This document shows positions 5,980-39,807 of a stretch of 64,000 nt of DNA, one piece after another. The notes under the pieces were generated by a model. That model made no database searches. It saw only the letters and a list, made by a program, of their open reading frames with translations, and was not told the DNA's origin. The stretch lies in contig JAJYRN010000006.1 of assembly GCA_021794095.1 (NCBI GenBank), forward strand, positions 62,001-126,000. The letters are read 5' to 3'. The stretch comes from Acidobacteriota bacterium (GTDB lineage: Bacteria > Acidobacteriota > Holophagae > Holophagales > Holophagaceae). How positions within the stretch are numbered: the stretch's first letter is position 1; each line of letters opens with the position of its first letter. The position numbers were made by a program, and so were the translations under genes.

Positions 5980-8382
<2,403 letters not shown>

Positions 8383-19691: not shown

Positions 19692-21083
19692 ATGCCCACA
19701 GCTGATCCCGACACCCTCTGGGAAACCCTTCGACAGGGACTGTCCAAGCAGCTTCCGGAGGCCAGTTTCGAGGAGTGGATCGCCCCCTGCCGGCCCCTCC
19801 GCCTGGAGGACGGGGTGTTGTGGATCCAGGTACCCAGCCCCGCCGCGAAGCTCTGGATTGAGCAGCAACTCCCCGAGGAGTTCAATGACGCCCTGGACCA
19901 GGGGGGGCTTAAGCACCTGCAGTTGATGTTCCAGGCCGGCGGGGAGCTTGGCTTGCTTTCACCTCAGGCCTCGCACCCGGCCCCAAGCCGGGCTACCCAG
20001 AACACTGCGGGCCCCCTAGGTGAACCTTCTATCTCCTTCCCGCACCTGTTCCATCGCTATACGCTTGACCGCTTTGTTGTGGGCCCCGGCAGCCAGTTGG
20101 CCTTCGCGGCCGCCCGGGCCGTGGTGGACACCTACGGCCGGGCTGCTACACCCCTCAACATGAATCCTTTGTTCATCTACGGAGGCGCGGGACTGGGCAA
20201 GACCCATCTCATGGTGGGCATCGGCAAGGATCTCCTCGCCCTCCAGCCCAACCTTCGGGTGGCCTATCTCAAGGTGGATCACTTCTTCAATGAATTGACC
20301 GCCGCCATCAAGGCCAAGAACACTGAGCCCATGCGGAAAAAATACCAGCAGAACGATGTGCTGCTGCTGGATGACGTCCAGACCCTGGGCAAGATGGAGC
20401 GCACGCAAGAGGAGATCTTCTACATCCTCGAGTACCTCCTGCAGCATGGAAAACAGATCATCATCACCTCCGACAAGCCCCCGCAGCGGCTCGAGGGTTG
20501 CCACGAGCGGCTGATCACCCGATTCAAGTGGGGCCTTACCGCGGACATCCAGCCCCCGGATTTCGAAACCCGCATCGCCATCTTGAAAAAGAAGCTGGAA
20601 GATGGGGATTTCAAAGGGTTGCCCCTGGTTCCGGAAGACGTGCTGACTTTCATCGCCCACAAAGCCAAGGGCAGTGTGCGGGATCTGGAAGGCCTCCTCA
20701 CCCGGGTCATCTTCCAGGCCAGCCTCAAGGGTGAAGCCCCGACCCTGGAAGTCGCCCACGCTGCGTTCCAGGGTCAGAGCGGGGAAGAACCCACGGGTTC
20801 TGTTCCGCCTGAACGCATCTACCGCATGACCGCGGAGACATTCAATGTGCCCTTTGGTGACCTCATGAAAAAGCGCTCGCGCCAGCAAGCCATCATGGTC
20901 CCGAGGCAGGTGGCGATGTATCTGGCGCGGGAAATCGCCTCCATCCCTTTCACGGACATTGGCCGTTCCTTCAACATGCATCACTCGACGGTGATGAATG
21001 CCATTGATTCCGTGAAGCTGCGCATGCGGCGGGACCAGGAATTCCACCGGATGGTCCAGGCCCTCTTGAATAGCATCCATTGA
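19692..21083 (+). CDS. dnaA: Chromosomal replication initiator protein DnaA
   Basis: 463 residues with all four domains. Domain I begins LWETLRQGLSKQLPEASFEEWI. A linker precedes the AAA+ domain, which has Walker A GGAGLGKTHL (Lys170) and Walker B LLLDDVQTLG. Domain IV ends with the DNA-binding signature MHHSTVMNAIDSV. It binds DnaA boxes at oriC and opens the duplex. The ATG at 19692 matches the family N-terminus. dnaN follows after a 217-bp gap holding box-like sequences. Confidence 0.98.
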   Translation: MPTADPDTLWETLRQGLSKQLPEASFEEWIAPCRPLRLEDGVLWIQVPSPAAKLWIEQQLPEEFNDALDQGGLKHLQLMFQAGGELGLLSPQASHPAPSRATQNTAGPLGEPSISFPHLFHRYTLDRFVVGPGSQLAFAAARAVVDTYGRAATPLNMNPLFIYGGAGLGKTHLMVGIGKDLLALQPNLRVAYLKVDHFFNELTAAIKAKNTEPMRKKYQQNDVLLLDDVQTLGKMERTQEEIFYILEYLLQHGKQIIITSDKPPQRLEGCHERLITRFKWGLTADIQPPDFETRIAILKKKLEDGDFKGLPLVPEDVLTFIAHKAKGSVRDLEGLLTRVIFQASLKGEAPTLEVAHAAFQGQSGEEPTGSVPPERIYRMTAETFNVPFGDLMKKRSRQQAIMVPRQVAMYLAREIASIPFTDIGRSFNMHHSTVMNAIDSVKLRMRRDQEFHRMVQALLNSIH

Positions 21084-29438: not shown

Positions 29439-29556
29439 GGCAAGGACTCCGGAATGTTGTCCCTATCCTAGCCGCGGCCTGCATCCGCCAAGGGGCTCGA
29501 TTCGTGAGCGGGGTCACAGCTCCGCGACCGTGCGAAACTGGAGGGCCGGAGCATCC

Positions 29557-33290: not shown

Positions 33291-35180
33291 CTATTCCAGC
33301 ACGGGTTCCAGGTGGTAGGGGATGGAGATCACGACCGTTTTGGGTTTCAGGAAGAGCACGGCCTTGATGCGCCAGGCCGTCTGGTTGTGGAGGAGGTTCT
33401 CCCACCAGTGGCGGGTCACGAATTCAGGCAGGATCACGGTGACGGTGTACTCGGGCTCATTCATGCGCATGCGGTCAAGATCCTCGATGATGGGCTCGAC
33501 GATCTTCCGGTAGGGGCTCCGGAGGATCCGCAACGGGATGCCTTCGCAGTAGGTCGGCCAATCGGCCTGGAGCTTCTGGAGCGAGGCGCTGTCGCGTCCG
33601 TGTTCGTCCGGGAAGTCCACGGTGAGGGCTTCGATCTGCCCGTGCTCGGCGATGGCTTTGGCGTAGTTCAATGCCTGCACCACGCCGGAATGGATGCCCG
33701 AGACCAGCACCACCACGCGGTTCTTGCGGGGCGCGATGAAATCGGCGCGACTGGCGGCCAGGATGGACTTCACGCGGATGTAGTGGCGGTGGATGTTGAG
33801 GAAGATCGCCACCATCAGCGGCACCAGGAGGATGACGATCCAGGCCCCGTGAACGAAGCGGGTCAGGGTGATGACCAGTGCCACGGTCAAGGCCGTGAGG
33901 GCCCCCACGCCGTTGATGACCGCCTTGGATCGCCAATGCGGGCCCTTGTGGCGGAACCAGTGCCGCACCATCCCGGTCTGGCTCAGCGTGAAGCCCATGA
34001 ACACACCCACGGCATACAGCGGCAGCAGGTGGTCCTCCTTGGCCCCGAAGAGGAACACCAGGATGCCCGCCGCCACGGACAGGATCAGGATGCCGTTGGA
34101 GAACACCAGGCGGTCGCCCTGGCTGGTGAACTGCCGGGGAAGGAAGCCATCCCGGGCCTGGATGGCGGCCAGCCGGGGGAAGTCGGCATAGGCCGTGTTG
34201 GCTGCCAGGGCGAGGATGGCCATGGTGAAGCCGGTCAGGGTCAGATAGGCGAAGTGGCCAAAACCATGCCCCGCGCGACCGAGGATGATGTGGGCGAGCT
34301 GGGAAAGCAGGGTCTCCGGGGCATCGGGGCTGTAGGTCAGGCCGTAGTGGTTGGTCAGGTAGGTGATGCCCAGGAACATCGTGCCCAGGAGCGCCACCAT
34401 CCAGGTCATGGTCTTGGAGGCATTGTGGGCGACGGGCTCCCGGAAGGCCTGGACGCCATTGCTGATGGCCTCCACGCCGGTCAGGGCGGTGCAGCCCGCA
34501 CTGTAGGCCCGGGCGAAGAGCCAGACGGCCACCCATCGGCTGACGTCGGCAATCTGGGGGGCGACGAAATGGACGGCGGGGTGGGGGTGGATCAGCATGT
34601 CCCAGAAGCCCCGGGCCAGCAGGGACAGGACGCAGATCACGAAGCCGTAGGTGGGCACCGAAAAGACCAGGCCGCTTTCTTTGACGCCGCGGAGGTTCAC
34701 GAGGGCCACGAACGCGATGATGCCTTCGGCCAGAAAGATCCGGTGGGGTTCCATGGCCGGGAAGGCCGAGGTGATGGCCGAGACACCCGCGGAGACAGAC
34801 ACGGCTACGGTCAGGATGTAGTCAATGAGCAGCGAGGCGCCCGCCGTCTGGGCGGCCAATTCTCCGAGGTTGTCCTTGGCCACCAGGTAGGCGCCCCCGC
34901 CGCCGGGGTAGGCGTGGATGGTCTGCCGGTAGCTGAAGGTGAGGATCGCCAGCAGGGCCACGATGCCCAGCGCCACATACCAGGACCAGCCCAGAACCCC
35001 CGCGCCGAACATGGCCACGGCCATGGTGAGGGGCGTCATGATCTCCTGGGTGCCGTAGGCCACCGAGGAGAGGGCATCCGAGCTGAATACGGCCAGGGCG
35101 ATGGGATTGTTGATCCGGGTGTGCTGCGTCTCTTCGCTGGACAGGCGACGCCCGAGAAGGATCCGTCTAAGGTTCGGCAT
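33291..35180 (-). CDS. KimA-like potassium transporter (APC superfamily with cytosolic C-terminal domain), copy 1
   Basis: 629 residues: about 12 transmembrane helices, then a hydrophilic ~170-residue tail. It carries the diagnostic blocks of Bacillus subtilis KimA (YdaO): SSDALSSVAYGT, AYPGGGGAYLVAKDNLGE, LLIDYILTVAVSVSAG, GCTALTGVEAISNG and ARDGFLPRQFT. The tail has a nucleotide-binding-like fold (VVVLVSGIHSGVVQALNYAK) and ends NLLHNQTAWRIK with IPYHLEP. KimA is a proton-coupled K+ importer. c-di-AMP control in Firmicutes acts through the tail; here it is untested. A second, similar copy lies upstream 36 bp away. Confidence 0.82.
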   Translation of the reverse strand: MPNLRRILLGRRLSSEETQHTRINNPIALAVFSSDALSSVAYGTQEIMTPLTMAVAMFGAGVLGWSWYVALGIVALLAILTFSYRQTIHAYPGGGGAYLVAKDNLGELAAQTAGASLLIDYILTVAVSVSAGVSAITSAFPAMEPHRIFLAEGIIAFVALVNLRGVKESGLVFSVPTYGFVICVLSLLARGFWDMLIHPHPAVHFVAPQIADVSRWVAVWLFARAYSAGCTALTGVEAISNGVQAFREPVAHNASKTMTWMVALLGTMFLGITYLTNHYGLTYSPDAPETLLSQLAHIILGRAGHGFGHFAYLTLTGFTMAILALAANTAYADFPRLAAIQARDGFLPRQFTSQGDRLVFSNGILILSVAAGILVFLFGAKEDHLLPLYAVGVFMGFTLSQTGMVRHWFRHKGPHWRSKAVINGVGALTALTVALVITLTRFVHGAWIVILLVPLMVAIFLNIHRHYIRVKSILAASRADFIAPRKNRVVVLVSGIHSGVVQALNYAKAIAEHGQIEALTVDFPDEHGRDSASLQKLQADWPTYCEGIPLRILRSPYRKIVEPIIEDLDRMRMNEPEYTVTVILPEFVTRHWWENLLHNQTAWRIKAVLFLKPKTVVISIPYHLEPVLE

Positions 35181-35216
35181 GCAGTTCCATCATCCGGCCC
35201 GGCCGGTTCCAGAAAG

Positions 35217-37130
35217 CTACTCTAGATCCGGCTCCAGATGGTAGGGAATGGAGATCACCACCGTCTTGGGCTTCGCGAGCAGGGTGCCCTTAATGCGCCA
35301 GGCGGTCTGGTTGTGGAGCAGATGCTCCCACCAGTGGGCTGTGACGAACTCCGGGATGATGACCGTGACGGTGTACTCCGGTTCCGCGCGCCGCATGCGG
35401 TCGAGATCCTCGATGATGGGTTCGACGATCTTCCGGTAGGGGCTGCGGAGCACGCGGAGGGGCACGCCCTCGCAGTAGTAGGGCCAGTCAGCCTGGAGCT
35501 TCTCCAGGGCGGCGCTGTCGCGGCCGTTCTCGTCGGGAAAGTCCACCGTCAGCGCCTCGATCTCCCCGTGTTCGGCGATGGCCTTGGCGTAGTTCAGCGC
35601 CTGCACGACGCCGGAGTGGATGCCGGAAACCAGCACCACCACGCGATTTCGGCGGGGCGTGAGGAAGTTGGTCCGGCTGGCGGCCAGGCGGGATTTCACG
35701 CGGATGTAGTGGCGGTGGATGTTGAAGAAGGTGAACACCAGGATCGGCACCAGCAGCACCACCACCCAGACGCCATGGGTGAACTTGGTGGCGATGATGA
35801 CGCACATGACCAGGAAGGTGGTCATGGCCCCAATGCCGTTCACCACGGCCTTCAGGCGCCAGCCCTGGCCGCCCTCCTTCCTCCAGTGGAGAACCATGCC
35901 CGTCTGGCTGATGGTGAAGCCGATGAACACGCCCAGGGCGTAGAGGTCCAGGAGGTGGGTCTCGTGGGCATCGAACAGCACGATCAGGATCGCCGAGGCC
36001 ACGCTGAGGATGATGATGCCGTTGGAGAAGACAAGGCGGTCGCCCTGGCTGGTGAACTGGCGGGGCAGGAAGCCATCCCGGGCGTGGAGCGCCGCCAGAC
36101 GGGGAAAATCCGCATAGGAGGTGTTGGCCGCGAGCGAGAGGATGGCCGTGGTGAAGAACTGCTGGGCAAAGTAGACGGCCTTCCCCAGGCCGGAGGTGCC
36201 GTAGATCTTATGCCCCAGCATGGAGAGCAGTGATTCGGCCATCGCGTCGTTGTGGCCCAGGTGGTAGTGGTTCGAAAGGTAGGTGATGCCGAGGAACATG
36301 GTGCCCAGCAGGAGCACCATGGAGGTCATGGTCTTGGCGGCGTTGTCGGAGACCGGAGGTTTGAACGCCGTTACGCCGTTGCTGATGGCCTCCACCCCCG
36401 TCAAGGCGGTGCAGCCCGCGGCGTAGGCCCGGGCGAAGAGCCAGATGGCCGCCAGCTTGCCGAGGGTGTTGACGTGGAGCATCTGGACCCGTACCGGCTC
36501 GATGAGCGCGCCATCGGTGTGTGTGACGGCCCGCACCACCCCGATGCCCACCATGGTCAGGATCAGGCAGACGAACCCGTAGGTGGGGATCGCGAACACC
36601 GCACCGCTCTCCTTCACGCCCCGCAGGTTCATGAGGGCGATGAAGGCGACGATGAGCAGCGCCATGGCCACCCGGTGGGGTTCCAGGGCCGGGAAAGCGG
36701 AGGTGATGGCGGTGACGCCGGCGGAGACCGACACCGCCACGGTCAGAATGTAGTCAATGAGCAGGGAGGCCCCCGCCGTCTGCGCCGCGAGCTCGCCCAG
36801 GTTGTCCTTGGCGACCAGGTAGGCGCCACCGCCGGACGGGTAGGCGTGGATGGTCTGCTTGTAGCTCACCATCAGGATGAGCAGGAGGGCGCTGATGCCC
36901 AGGGCCGCCCACCAGGACCAGAAGATGGCACCCATGGCCATCGCGGCGGTGAGGCCGAGCGACGGGGTCACCCGGCTGATGGTGTTCATGATGGCTTCCG
37001 TGCCGTAGGCCACGGAGGAAAGCGCATCCGAGCTGAACACCGCCAGGGCGATGGGGTTGCTGATCTTCGTGGTGTGGCTCTCCTCGCTGCCGAGACGGCG
37101 GCCCAGGAGGATGCGTCGGAGCTTGGGCAT
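35217..37130 (-). CDS. KimA-like potassium transporter, copy 2
   Basis: 637 residues, clearly paralogous to the next gene downstream along the full length. They share MPxLRRILLGRRL, SSDALSSVAYGT, GGGAYLVAKDNLGE, the AITSAFPALEP block, NNIHRHYIRVKS-type tail start and the closing HLLHNQTAWRIK and IPYHLEP. Differences concentrate in the loop around residues 195-240 and in the helix after GAIFWSWW. The tandem pair probably arose by duplication and diverged enough to differ in affinity or control. Predicted inner-membrane K+ importer. Confidence 0.82.
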   Translation of the reverse strand: MPKLRRILLGRRLGSEESHTTKISNPIALAVFSSDALSSVAYGTEAIMNTISRVTPSLGLTAAMAMGAIFWSWWAALGISALLLILMVSYKQTIHAYPSGGGAYLVAKDNLGELAAQTAGASLLIDYILTVAVSVSAGVTAITSAFPALEPHRVAMALLIVAFIALMNLRGVKESGAVFAIPTYGFVCLILTMVGIGVVRAVTHTDGALIEPVRVQMLHVNTLGKLAAIWLFARAYAAGCTALTGVEAISNGVTAFKPPVSDNAAKTMTSMVLLLGTMFLGITYLSNHYHLGHNDAMAESLLSMLGHKIYGTSGLGKAVYFAQQFFTTAILSLAANTSYADFPRLAALHARDGFLPRQFTSQGDRLVFSNGIIILSVASAILIVLFDAHETHLLDLYALGVFIGFTISQTGMVLHWRKEGGQGWRLKAVVNGIGAMTTFLVMCVIIATKFTHGVWVVVLLVPILVFTFFNIHRHYIRVKSRLAASRTNFLTPRRNRVVVLVSGIHSGVVQALNYAKAIAEHGEIEALTVDFPDENGRDSAALEKLQADWPYYCEGVPLRVLRSPYRKIVEPIIEDLDRMRRAEPEYTVTVIIPEFVTAHWWEHLLHNQTAWRIKGTLLAKPKTVVISIPYHLEPDLE

Positions 37131-37551: not shown

Positions 37552-37861
37552 GCTTCCTGCCCAAAGGGAACCATTATGGCCGCGCCATCCTGCACCAGAT
37601 GGCACAAACACCCCGAAGGAGATTCCCCGGAATTGCCCCCCCCCGGACGAAGGGGTTGTATGGATGCGATAATATTTTTTATTTATTGAAATATTGTAAT
37701 TTATTTTTAATCGAAATCCATTGTTGCTCTAACTGCGAGTGATTCACGTCACAGAGGGGAAGTTCCCTGCACCGTAGTCCCTACCACCCGTTGTTCCGGT
37801 GGATTCCATTCCGGGTCCGAAGACCCATTGCGGCGGCGTTTGTCCGCCAGGAGGCTCTCCC
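37552..37861. promoter_or_regulatory. 310-bp intergenic region with an AT-rich island upstream of the bufferin-like operon
   Basis: Non-coding spacer between divergent genes. From about 37668 to 37720 nearly every base is A or T, in sharp contrast to the surrounding GC-rich DNA. It contains a -35-like TTGAAA (37686-37691) but no clear -10 at 17 bp. It probably holds the operon promoter and perhaps an UP-type element or nucleoid-protein site. A Shine-Dalgarno AGGAGG lies just before 37862. I see no gene or recognised metal-regulator palindrome in it. Confidence 0.55.
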
Positions 37862-38131
37862 ATGAACCGCACCCACCCCGCCCTCGCCACCCTCTTTGCC
37901 GCCGGCGCCTTTGTGGCCGCTGGCGCCGTTCCGGCCATGGCCGCCACCGCCACCTCCACCCGCACCAGCACCAACCTGGTCGAAGCCGGCTGCGGCGCCA
38001 AGGGTGCGAAGGGCGCGAAGGATGCCAAGTGCGGCAAGGGCGCCAAGACCAAGAAGGACGCGGCCAAGAAGGGCGCGAAGGACGCCTCCTGCGGCAAGGG
38101 TTCCTGCGGCAGCAGCAAGAAGAAGGGGTGA
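37862..38131 (+). CDS. Bufferin-like (BufA/HvfA-type) secreted precursor peptide
   Basis: 89 residues. A signal peptide (ALATLFAAGAFVAAGAVPA, cleavage near AMA-A) precedes a Thr/Ser stretch and a Lys-rich core with four Cys-Gly pairs at Cys44, Cys57, Cys77 and Cys82. Three of them fit [DE]-A-x-C-G (EAGCG, DAKCG, DASCG); the fourth is GSCG. Gly-Ala-Lys repeats (GAKGAKGAKDAK) separate them. About 15 lysines lie after the signal. Known BufA2/HvfA precursors carry EGKCG motifs whose cysteines are converted by a DUF692 enzyme, encoded next here. The product is predicted to be a periplasmic copper-binding peptide; modification and metal are inferred. Confidence 0.75.
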   Translation: MNRTHPALATLFAAGAFVAAGAVPAMAATATSTRTSTNLVEAGCGAKGAKGAKDAKCGKGAKTKKDAAKKGAKDASCGKGSCGSSKKKG

Positions 38132-38148
38132 TCCCGGTCTTTGATTTC

Positions 38149-38173
38149 CCCGGGGGCGCCTGGCGCCCCCGGG
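38149..38173 (+). terminator. Intra-operon hairpin between precursor and enzyme genes
   Basis: CCCGGGGGCGCC, T, GGCGCCCCCGGG: a perfect 12-bp inverted repeat 17 bp after the precursor stop, followed by ACTGTTT. It looks like an attenuator or partial terminator that would make precursor mRNA more abundant than enzyme mRNA, or a 3' stabiliser of the precursor message. Confidence 0.65.
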
Positions 38174-38192
38174 ACTGTTTAACGAGGCTCCC

Positions 38193-39035
38193 ATGGCATT
38201 CACCGGCGTTGGTCTGGGCCTGCGGCGGCCCCACATGGAGCAGGTGGCGGCGCTCGACGTCGCTCCCGTGCCCTTCTGGGAGATCGCGCCCGAGAACGTG
38301 GTGGGCCAAGGCGGGGCGCGGCATCGCCTGGTCATGGGCATTCTCGAACGGGACGATGTCCTCACGCACGGCCTTTCCATGTCCATGGGCGGCTTCGACG
38401 CCTGGGCGCCCGAGGTGCTGGAGCAGCTCGTGGCCTTCCTCAAGGCCACAGGCACGCCCTGGCATTCCGAGCATCTCTGCTGGAGCAGCTTCGGCGGGGC
38501 CCACACCCACGAACTGCTGCCCATGCCCTTCACCCGCGAGGCGGCGCGCCACGCCATCGCCCGCGTGAAGACCCTGCAGGCCAAATTGCCCGTGCCCTTC
38601 CTGCTGGAGAACATCAGCTATTACGCCGAACTGGGCGAGCCCGAGATGAGCGAGCGGGATTTCCTGCTGGAGGTGCTGGAGGGTGCCGACTGCGGCTGGC
38701 TGCTGGACATCAACAACGTCTATGTGAACAGTGTGAACCACGGCTTCGACCCGAAGGAGTGGCTCGCGGGGATGCCCCTGCACCGGGTGGCCCAGATGCA
38801 CATTGCCGGCCATACCTGGCTGGAGGCCGAGGGCGTCCTTCTCGACACCCACGGCGCCCCCGTGGTGGATCCCGTCGTGGACCTGATGGCCTGGGTGCTG
38901 CCGCGCATCGGCCGGCCCGTTCCGGTGCTGCTGGAGCGGGATCATGAGATCCCGGATTTGGCCGTGCTTCTGGCGGAACGCGAACAGCTCCAGGCTGCCT
39001 ACGAGGGTGCCCTGGCGGGGGTGGCCCATGCGTGA
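38193..39035 (+). CDS. DUF692 multinuclear iron enzyme, BufB/MbnB/HvfB-like
   Basis: 280 residues of the DUF692 TIM-barrel family. Likely metal ligands are all present: His91-Ser-Glu93-His94 (TPWHSEHLCW), Glu139-Asn140 (FLLENISYY), Asp172-x-Asn-Asn (LLDINNVYVNS), His203 (MHIAGH) and Glu248-x-Asp250 (LLERDHE). In MbnB and HvfB such sites hold a multinuclear iron centre that oxidises cysteine to an oxazolone-thioamide or related heterocycle. GAGG precedes the ATG at 38193. Substrate is inferred to be the upstream Cys-Gly peptide. The stop overlaps the next gene by 8 nt. Confidence 0.88.
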   Translation: MAFTGVGLGLRRPHMEQVAALDVAPVPFWEIAPENVVGQGGARHRLVMGILERDDVLTHGLSMSMGGFDAWAPEVLEQLVAFLKATGTPWHSEHLCWSSFGGAHTHELLPMPFTREAARHAIARVKTLQAKLPVPFLLENISYYAELGEPEMSERDFLLEVLEGADCGWLLDINNVYVNSVNHGFDPKEWLAGMPLHRVAQMHIAGHTWLEAEGVLLDTHGAPVVDPVVDLMAWVLPRIGRPVPVLLERDHEIPDLAVLLAEREQLQAAYEGALAGVAHA

Positions 39036-39807
39036 ATCCCGCCTTGCCCACCTTCAGTCCGCGGTCCTGGACCTGGCCTTTGATGCAGATGCCGAAGCCT
39101 TCCGGGCTGATCCGGCCACCTGGGCCCAGGCCCGGAACCTCGTTTCCGCCGATGGACGGACGCTGGCCACCCGCCACGAACGCTGGCTGCTCTACCGCGA
39201 CCTGATCCGCACGACCCTGGAAGATCCCCTCGCGGACACCTTCCCCATCACGCAGACGCTGCTGGAGGAAGCTTCGGCCTGGGCCGAATGCGTGGATGCC
39301 TTCCTGGCCAGCCGGACAATCTCCAGCCCCTACTACCGCGAGGTGGCCCCCGCGTTTGTGGCCTGGCTGGCGGCCAGCCACTGGGGCCTGGAGCGCTGGC
39401 CCTTCCTGCTCCAGCTGGCTCACTACGAGGCGGTGGAACTGGAGGTGTTGTGGGCTCCGGATGCGTCCCCGGCCATCGGCCTGTCCGCCGAGCCCGCCCT
39501 TGACCGTGTCGCCGTGCTGGATCCCGCCGCCCGGAACCTGGCCTACGGCTTTGCGGTCCAGCTGGCCACGGTGGAGGCACCCGAGCCACCTCCCGCTTGT
39601 GCTCGGCTGCTCTGCCATCGGGACCGGGAAGGCGCCTTCCACGTCCTGGAACTCACGCCCCCTGTCTCCGCCCTGCTGGCCCGCAGCCAGGAAGGCCAGG
39701 CCCTGGGGCCGGCCTTGGCGGAGCTGGGGGCAGATCCGGTCGAAGCCTTCGCCCTCCTGCGCGAATTCCGGGACCAGGGTGTGCTTCAGGGATTCCGAAG
39801 CGCCTGA
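39028..39807 (+). CDS. DUF2063 partner protein, BufC/HvfC-like
   Basis: 259 residues. The N-terminus (RLAHLQSAVLDLAFD) begins the DUF2063 putative DNA-binding-like domain found in MbnC/BufC/HvfC-type partners. The middle (RTISSPYYREVAPAFVAWLA, then LPFLLQLAHYEAVELEVLW-like residues) has the HYE(A/W)VE pattern of the family. In characterised systems the partner binds precursor and DUF692 enzyme and is needed for activity, rather than binding DNA. It overlaps the enzyme gene by 8 nt, and its 3' end overlaps the convergent unknown gene by 22 nt. Confidence 0.85.
   Translation: MRESRLAHLQSAVLDLAFDADAEAFRADPATWAQARNLVSADGRTLATRHERWLLYRDLIRTTLEDPLADTFPITQTLLEEASAWAECVDAFLASRTISSPYYREVAPAFVAWLAASHWGLERWPFLLQLAHYEAVELEVLWAPDASPAIGLSAEPALDRVAVLDPAARNLAYGFAVQLATVEAPEPPPACARLLCHRDREGAFHVLELTPPVSALLARSQEGQALGPALAELGADPVEAFALLREFRDQGVLQGFRSA

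Follow-up and report, generated by a model that had tools for sequence, protein, structure and literature searches.

Judged by its sequence, the three-gene operon described here is a member of the MNIO-PME1 captophorin class, and belongs to a separate clade nearest the EGKCG/oxazolin branch. We consider it likely that this RiPP operon places 5-thiooxazoles on the cysteines of an exported peptide, that the peptide buffers Cu(I) in the periplasm, and that its production is under Crp-type control. Gene identity, conservation, clade, cysteine context, and the recurrence of a hairpin and of an operator come directly from computation; modification, export and copper binding are what we infer, with the chemistry and the copper function resting on homology. 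What is new is a well-defined captophorin-class operon whose substrate motif is shifted and whose operator is probably O2-linked, and it would place a family-wide, putatively copper-binding RiPP system in metal-reducing bacteria that are described as anaerobes. Positions are those of the window, i.e., the whole stretch of 64,000 nt that was analysed:

37739-37753, no strand: Crp-family-type operator GTGATTCACGTCACA (GTGA-N6-TCACA), 123 nt 5' of the precursor start codon
37862-38131, plus strand: precursor gene (A), 89 aa; homologous precursors occupy the same place in Holophagaceae
37862-37942, plus strand: portion of A that encodes the Sec signal peptide (MNRTHPALATLFAAGAFVAAGAVPAMA, followed by AT), by inspection; n-, h- and c-regions and AxA, kept in relatives
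38149-38173, plus strand: strong GC hairpin of 11 bp, CCCGGGGGCGC-CTG-GCGCCCCCGGG, between the precursor and enzyme genes
38193-39035, plus strand: MNIO (DUF692, PF05114) maturase (B), 280 aa; PF05114 at 295 bits, 3BWW, tree and residue table
39028-39807, plus strand: C, the PME type 1 partner of 259 aa, with DUF2063 and an RRE-like domain at the C-terminus; profiles, AlphaFold and Foldseek

Layout, conservation and host of the operon

The three open reading frames lie consecutively at 37862-38131, 38193-39035 and 39028-39807, as the first-pass annotation had them, and those of B and C share the 8 nt (39028-39035) that it had reported. The A-B-C order is kept in more than 20 Holophagaceae loci, signal-peptide Cys/Lys precursors recurring with it, and the dN/dS values against the closest relative (L002) are 0.12 for A and 0.08 for B. 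Since the order is so widely kept and purifying selection acts on A as well as on B, the operon is not a chance arrangement. The constraint on A is looser against more distant relatives (0.44-0.58). The enzyme is present in 17 of 24 sampled genus mates and has no match in the other seven, some of whose genomes are incomplete; such scattered absence is what a non-functional or decaying remnant might leave. We regard a remnant as highly improbable, because B is under purifying selection (dN/dS 0.08-0.20), the ligands and the B-C overlap are intact, and the operator and cysteine motifs are conserved.

The operon belongs to a Geothrix-like member of the Holophagaceae, a metal-reducing bacterium of soil, with a genome of 2.99 Mb; among named relatives, Geothrix rubra is the closest (86% identity for the enzyme). 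The origin-type region that had been proposed for this DNA is borne out by dnaA, which lies in the window at 19692-21083 (within it, approximately 20052-20543, C18:82052-82543); the cumulative GC skew has its minimum near 24 kb. Two adjacent paralogous permeases (AA_permease_2, 629-637 aa) occupy 33291-37130 on the minus strand, and most loci of the window's clade keep this pair beside the operon.

The maturase, its partner and their relatives

PF05114 matches B over its full length (295 bits; cut-off 25), which supports the DUF692 assignment originally made from the letters, and the best solved relative is 3BWW (E 3e-47). Residues H59, H94, E139, D172, H203, D218, H220, E248 and D250 are invariant among the aligned sequences that extend over them. 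The earlier list of likely iron ligands needs correction at H91, the first His of HxEH, which is replaced by Tyr, Phe, Ile or Trp in 71 of 71 non-Geothrix homologues and so is not a general iron ligand.

The partner C, which had been called a DUF2063 protein, matches both DUF2063 (40.4 bits; cut-off 27.2) and NGO1945_C (27.4 bits; cut-off 27). A phmmer search of C against PDB sequences gave no match, but its AlphaFold model (pLDDT 92) did find relatives by fold in Foldseek, namely 3DEE, a Neisseria PME1 protein (E 1.5e-7), and TglI in 8hi7 (E 3.6e-6), with a weak match to the RRE TbiB1. By its profile matches and its fold, C is a PME1 protein with DUF2063 and an RRE-type domain.

None of the three models for named MNIO subfamilies accepts B. 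It scores 265 bits on the HvfB model NF003818 (cut-off 360), where EGKCG-type controls (L045, L043 and L026) reach 389-451 bits; 260 bits on the BufB model NF050167 (cut-off 310), where a Myxococcota control enzyme reaches 337 bits; and 30 bits on the MbnB model TIGR04159 (cut-off 325). A maximum-likelihood tree joins the Holophagaceae enzymes in a single clade (support 100/100) on a long stem (0.73 changes per column); its sister group (100/93) is the EGKCG/oxazolin clade, made up of enzymes from Pseudomonadota and Bacteroidota, while the other Acidobacteriota enzymes group with the Cys-Lys (Buf2) enzymes (95/89).

The locus had first been described as bufferin-like. The class is right, and like the Buf1 (DUF2282) and Buf2 (6/12 Cys) bufferins (PMC12452194) the operon combines an MNIO and a DUF2063 partner with an exported Cys-bearing precursor; it is nonetheless neither Buf1 nor Buf2. 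Its precursor has no Pfam match at E values up to 1, DUF2282 included, nor does it have the Buf2 pattern of 6 or 12 conserved cysteines (Cys-Lys), having four that are all Cys-Gly. The Asp of the Buf2 selectivity site is absent from B, which has His251 there, the BufB cut-off is missed, and the operon is without sigma/anti-sigma or DoxX genes.

The remaining Acidobacteriota MNIO loci (L108-L137) share the phylum and the precursor-MNIO-partner order, but mostly have precursors of a Buf2-like CKGKNxCKGKGGC type and a selectivity site that reads EWD-D, and belong to another clade. PF05114 is found in 94 of 347 sampled Acidobacteriota genomes (27%; 50 of 188 genera), the best-scoring of which mostly have Buf2-like CKGK-type precursors, and the class has already been described as spread through the bacterial tree. 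The extension of range to this phylum that had been proposed is therefore modest, and weak as a claim to new ground. Acidobacteriota go unnamed in the largest survey's main text, and searches of the literature that paired MNIO with Acidobacteria or Geothrix gave no paper on these loci, which supplementary tables of the two main surveys may include.

Three further loci are distinctive. A Geothrix genome has a second, diverged MNIO copy (L103; G008:C1:10715-11524) directly after a reading frame that by eye resembles a radical SAM/SPASM protein with a Cys-rich C-terminus; no precursor was recognised there, and the locus may represent a different MNIO pathway. An MNIO on a contig filed as a Euryarchaeota MAG (L018, match 6001-6801) has a Cys-rich signal-peptide precursor upstream (EGKCG, GEGSCG); the locus is either genuinely archaeal or the result of misbinning. 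In Acidobacteriota locus L136, a precursor at 915-1391, upstream of an MNIO with EWDDD, consists of many tandem SCKGEKA repeats (approximately 16 Cys), an extreme repeat expansion.

Cysteine context and the expected product

As the first reading of the sequence had suggested, the precursor is Cys/Lys-rich and bears a signal peptide. Its 89 residues include a Sec-type signal (AMA-AT, cut after residue 27, as judged by eye and by conservation), and the mature part has four Cys and 15 Lys. The four cysteines, each of which is followed by Gly, are Cys44 (EAGCG), Cys57 (DAKCG), Cys77 (DASCG) and Cys82 (KGSCG). Exact EGKCG repeats are absent from the window precursor, which has a relaxed pattern only. 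Among Holophagaceae precursors, Gly is at +1 for 147 of 156 cysteines and D/E at -3 for 104, and the two occur together for 99, against 3.7 expected from composition (286 of 300 in EGKCG precursors). Ser often replaces Lys, and Lys often comes after the Gly (SCGK, KCGK). The Holophagaceae context is thus a relaxed EGKCG, [DE]-[AG]-[SK]-C-G.

These features connect the operon to fontiphorin (FonABC), oxazolin (HvfABC) and gonophorin (NgoABC), with which it shares the A-B-C order, an exported Cys-rich precursor and a PME1 protein with RRE (PMC12668002). The acidic residue at -3 and the Gly at +1 of most cysteines are likewise those of the Lys-Cys/EGKCG captophorins, whose MNIO is in the sister clade. 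Unlike these captophorins, the operon has a [DE][AG][SK]CG(K) core, His/Asn rather than Phe after the catalytic Asp, an enzyme that misses the HvfB cut-off, no DoxX, and a Crp-type operator. Fontiphorin, oxazolin and gonophorin, as products of the EGKCG clade, carry 5-thiooxazole and bind copper, the structure of oxazolin having been revised to 5-thiooxazole (PMC12668002). By analogy, the expected product is a 5-thiooxazole rather than the oxazolone-thioamide of methanobactin. MbnABC would be alike in that an MNIO modifies cysteines so that a ribosomal peptide can bind copper, but the window operon differs from it in having a DUF2063-type partner instead of MbnC, a Sec signal peptide, and an MbnB score of 30 of the required 325 bits.

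Published tests of FonBC substrates bear on which cysteines are modified. FonBC fully modifies DGKCG, tolerates several residues before Cys, requires a small residue after it, and is blocked by Arg at -3 (PMC12668002). Because of these results, modification is likely for Cys44, Cys57 and Cys77, and uncertain for Cys82, which has Lys at -3.

The residue next to the proposed catalytic Asp250 introduces some doubt about the chemistry. It is His251 in the window enzyme, and in 33 Holophagaceae sequences it is Asn (22), His (9) or, in the rest, Thr/Ser, and never Phe; Phe is found there in 56 of 71 other MNIOs. The position was mapped onto FonB through the shared ERD-F motif and not through the FonB sequence itself. 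In FonB, that Phe contacts the residues flanking the substrate Cys (PMC12668002), and since the window enzyme has His, and most of its relatives Asn, where EGKCG enzymes have this contact residue, the chemistry or the choice of site could differ. An altogether different Cys modification would also agree with cysteine surroundings that depart from the EGKCG group and with the separate, long-stem clade (0.73). We consider it improbable, however, because the FonB variants F250A and F250D still made 5-thiooxazole (PMC12668002), which argues that the residue at this site tunes selectivity and not the product. With its selectivity residue changed, the enzyme and its precursor are a naturally occurring pair on which cysteine choice by MNIOs could be tested.

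In the 5-thiooxazole pathway that we favor, the PME1 protein would bind the precursor in the cytoplasm and present it to the iron enzyme, which with O2 would convert X-Cys pairs (most likely Cys44, Cys57 and Cys77, perhaps Cys82) to 5-thiooxazoles, with a loss of 4 H per site. The Sec machinery would then export the modified peptide and the signal sequence would be removed, leaving a mature, Lys-rich, thiol-bearing peptide of approximately 62 residues that would bind Cu(I) in the periplasm and buffer or sequester copper.

Operator, hairpin and the role of the peptide

The hairpin between A and B is followed by no T-run in the window and so is not a canonical terminator. Within the window's clade, hairpins of 10-13 bp with differing sequences occur in eight of nine loci, while the sister Geothrix clade has short A-B gaps and no hairpin. 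Scans for sigma-70 promoters and intrinsic terminators gave nothing, and an Rfam search gave no RNA family. We propose that the hairpin is an attenuator or an mRNA-stabilising element; through partial termination or mRNA stabilisation, it may act after the first gene, where it would probably raise the output of precursor over enzyme. Many gammaproteobacterial EGKCG loci also have an A-B hairpin, and strong hairpins of other sequence are seen in gammaproteobacterial and Bacteroidota EGKCG operons (L017, L020, L028, L029, L032, L054, L069, L074 and others); the hairpin is possibly general to such operons.

Upstream of A, the half-sites of GTGA-N6-TCACA are invariant and the spacer variable in all eight clade loci with upstream DNA, at 95-128 nt before the precursor start codon. 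The site is present in one other locus and absent from the sister Geothrix clade, so control through this operator is not general. A chance estimate from base composition (approximately nine sites per genome) made 14 sites look weak, and spacing was used as the control instead. In five genomes, N6 occurs 89 times, N5 seven times and N7 18 times, and with N6 so far in excess the motif is real.

The regulon was read site by site. One copy of the motif in the window's genome stands 47 bp 5' of a gene of Crp type (cNMP-binding plus HTH_Crp_2), and orthologues of this gene in six other genomes (92-96% identity) have the site 49-59 bp upstream, i.e., in seven of seven genomes overall. The recognition helix of this protein is SREAFSR, which we take to be comparable to the CRP helix. 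The motif is doubled before cydA (cydAB) in three genomes and precedes 4-hydroxyphenylpyruvate dioxygenase (HPPD) in three genomes, and likewise glyA. In the window's genome it also precedes an operon whose products are a pentahaem ActA-like cytochrome, SCO1 and caa3-type oxidase subunits; in G. rubra it precedes the ActA-like gene. The presence of oxidases and an O2-dependent dioxygenase among these targets suggests an O2-linked regulon, to which the O2-dependent MNIO probably belongs. We infer the ligand and the direction of control, and also that the Crp-type factor is the binding protein. Transcription of the operon would probably be under this autoregulated factor, and since the factor would also govern the terminal oxidases, the O2-requiring enzyme would be made in an O2-related state. 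G. fermentans, of the same genus, has been described as strictly anaerobic (PMC10946571), but O2 for the MNIO is plausible because the window's genome encodes both haem-copper and bd oxidases. The operator common to the oxidases offers a concrete reason why an O2-dependent maturase could work in described anaerobes.

More tentatively, and with less confidence than in the captophorin assignment itself, the peptide may be a distinct captophorin subclass whose production the Crp-type regulator ties to oxygen respiration. It would then be made when O2 is present, both because the iron enzyme needs O2 and because the peptide would buffer or deliver copper during copper-oxidase assembly and oxidation of the anoxic copper pool.

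A third account keeps the biosynthesis and gives the peptide a main role other than copper excess, as a copper store for the caa3 oxidase, with another soft metal, or in oxidative stress. The operon has its operator motif in common with the two terminal oxidase operons, and one of these includes the copper chaperone SCO1, which is consistent with such a role; so is the neighborhood, as no copper-efflux gene adjoins the operon and two Cu-ATPases are encoded elsewhere in the genome. It also counts against the copper-buffering reading that no copper gene or copper regulator adjoins the operon, and that DoxX, a frequent companion, was sought in the genome and not found; the window contains no direct tie between the operon and copper. 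MerC-linked bufferins also suggest other metals (PMC12452194). Characterised MNIO-PME1 products, however, are generally copper binders, and induction by excess metal is frequent (PMC12668002); we consider this account unlikely. Copper handling in general, rather than this operon in particular, is what fits the finding that an enrichment from a former copper mine, amended with copper, was dominated by Geothrix (PMC10946571).

Three other observations concern the motif and its surroundings. The sequence GTGATCGTGGTCACA (G001, G002, G007 and G020) was considered as a conserved promoter site and rejected, as it lies inside the trigger factor gene. A second GTGA-N6-TCACA site is found at 29504 in the window, approximately 65 bp upstream of glyA, and is kept in G. 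rubra and G007. In the sister clade, G007:C2:499000-510000 (L234) has four GTGA-N6-TCAC sites within 7.3 kb, which precede two long lipoprotein-like reading frames (10 CxxCH each) and two Rrf2-like regulator reading frames; together they possibly form a cluster for extracellular electron transfer that the same regulator controls.
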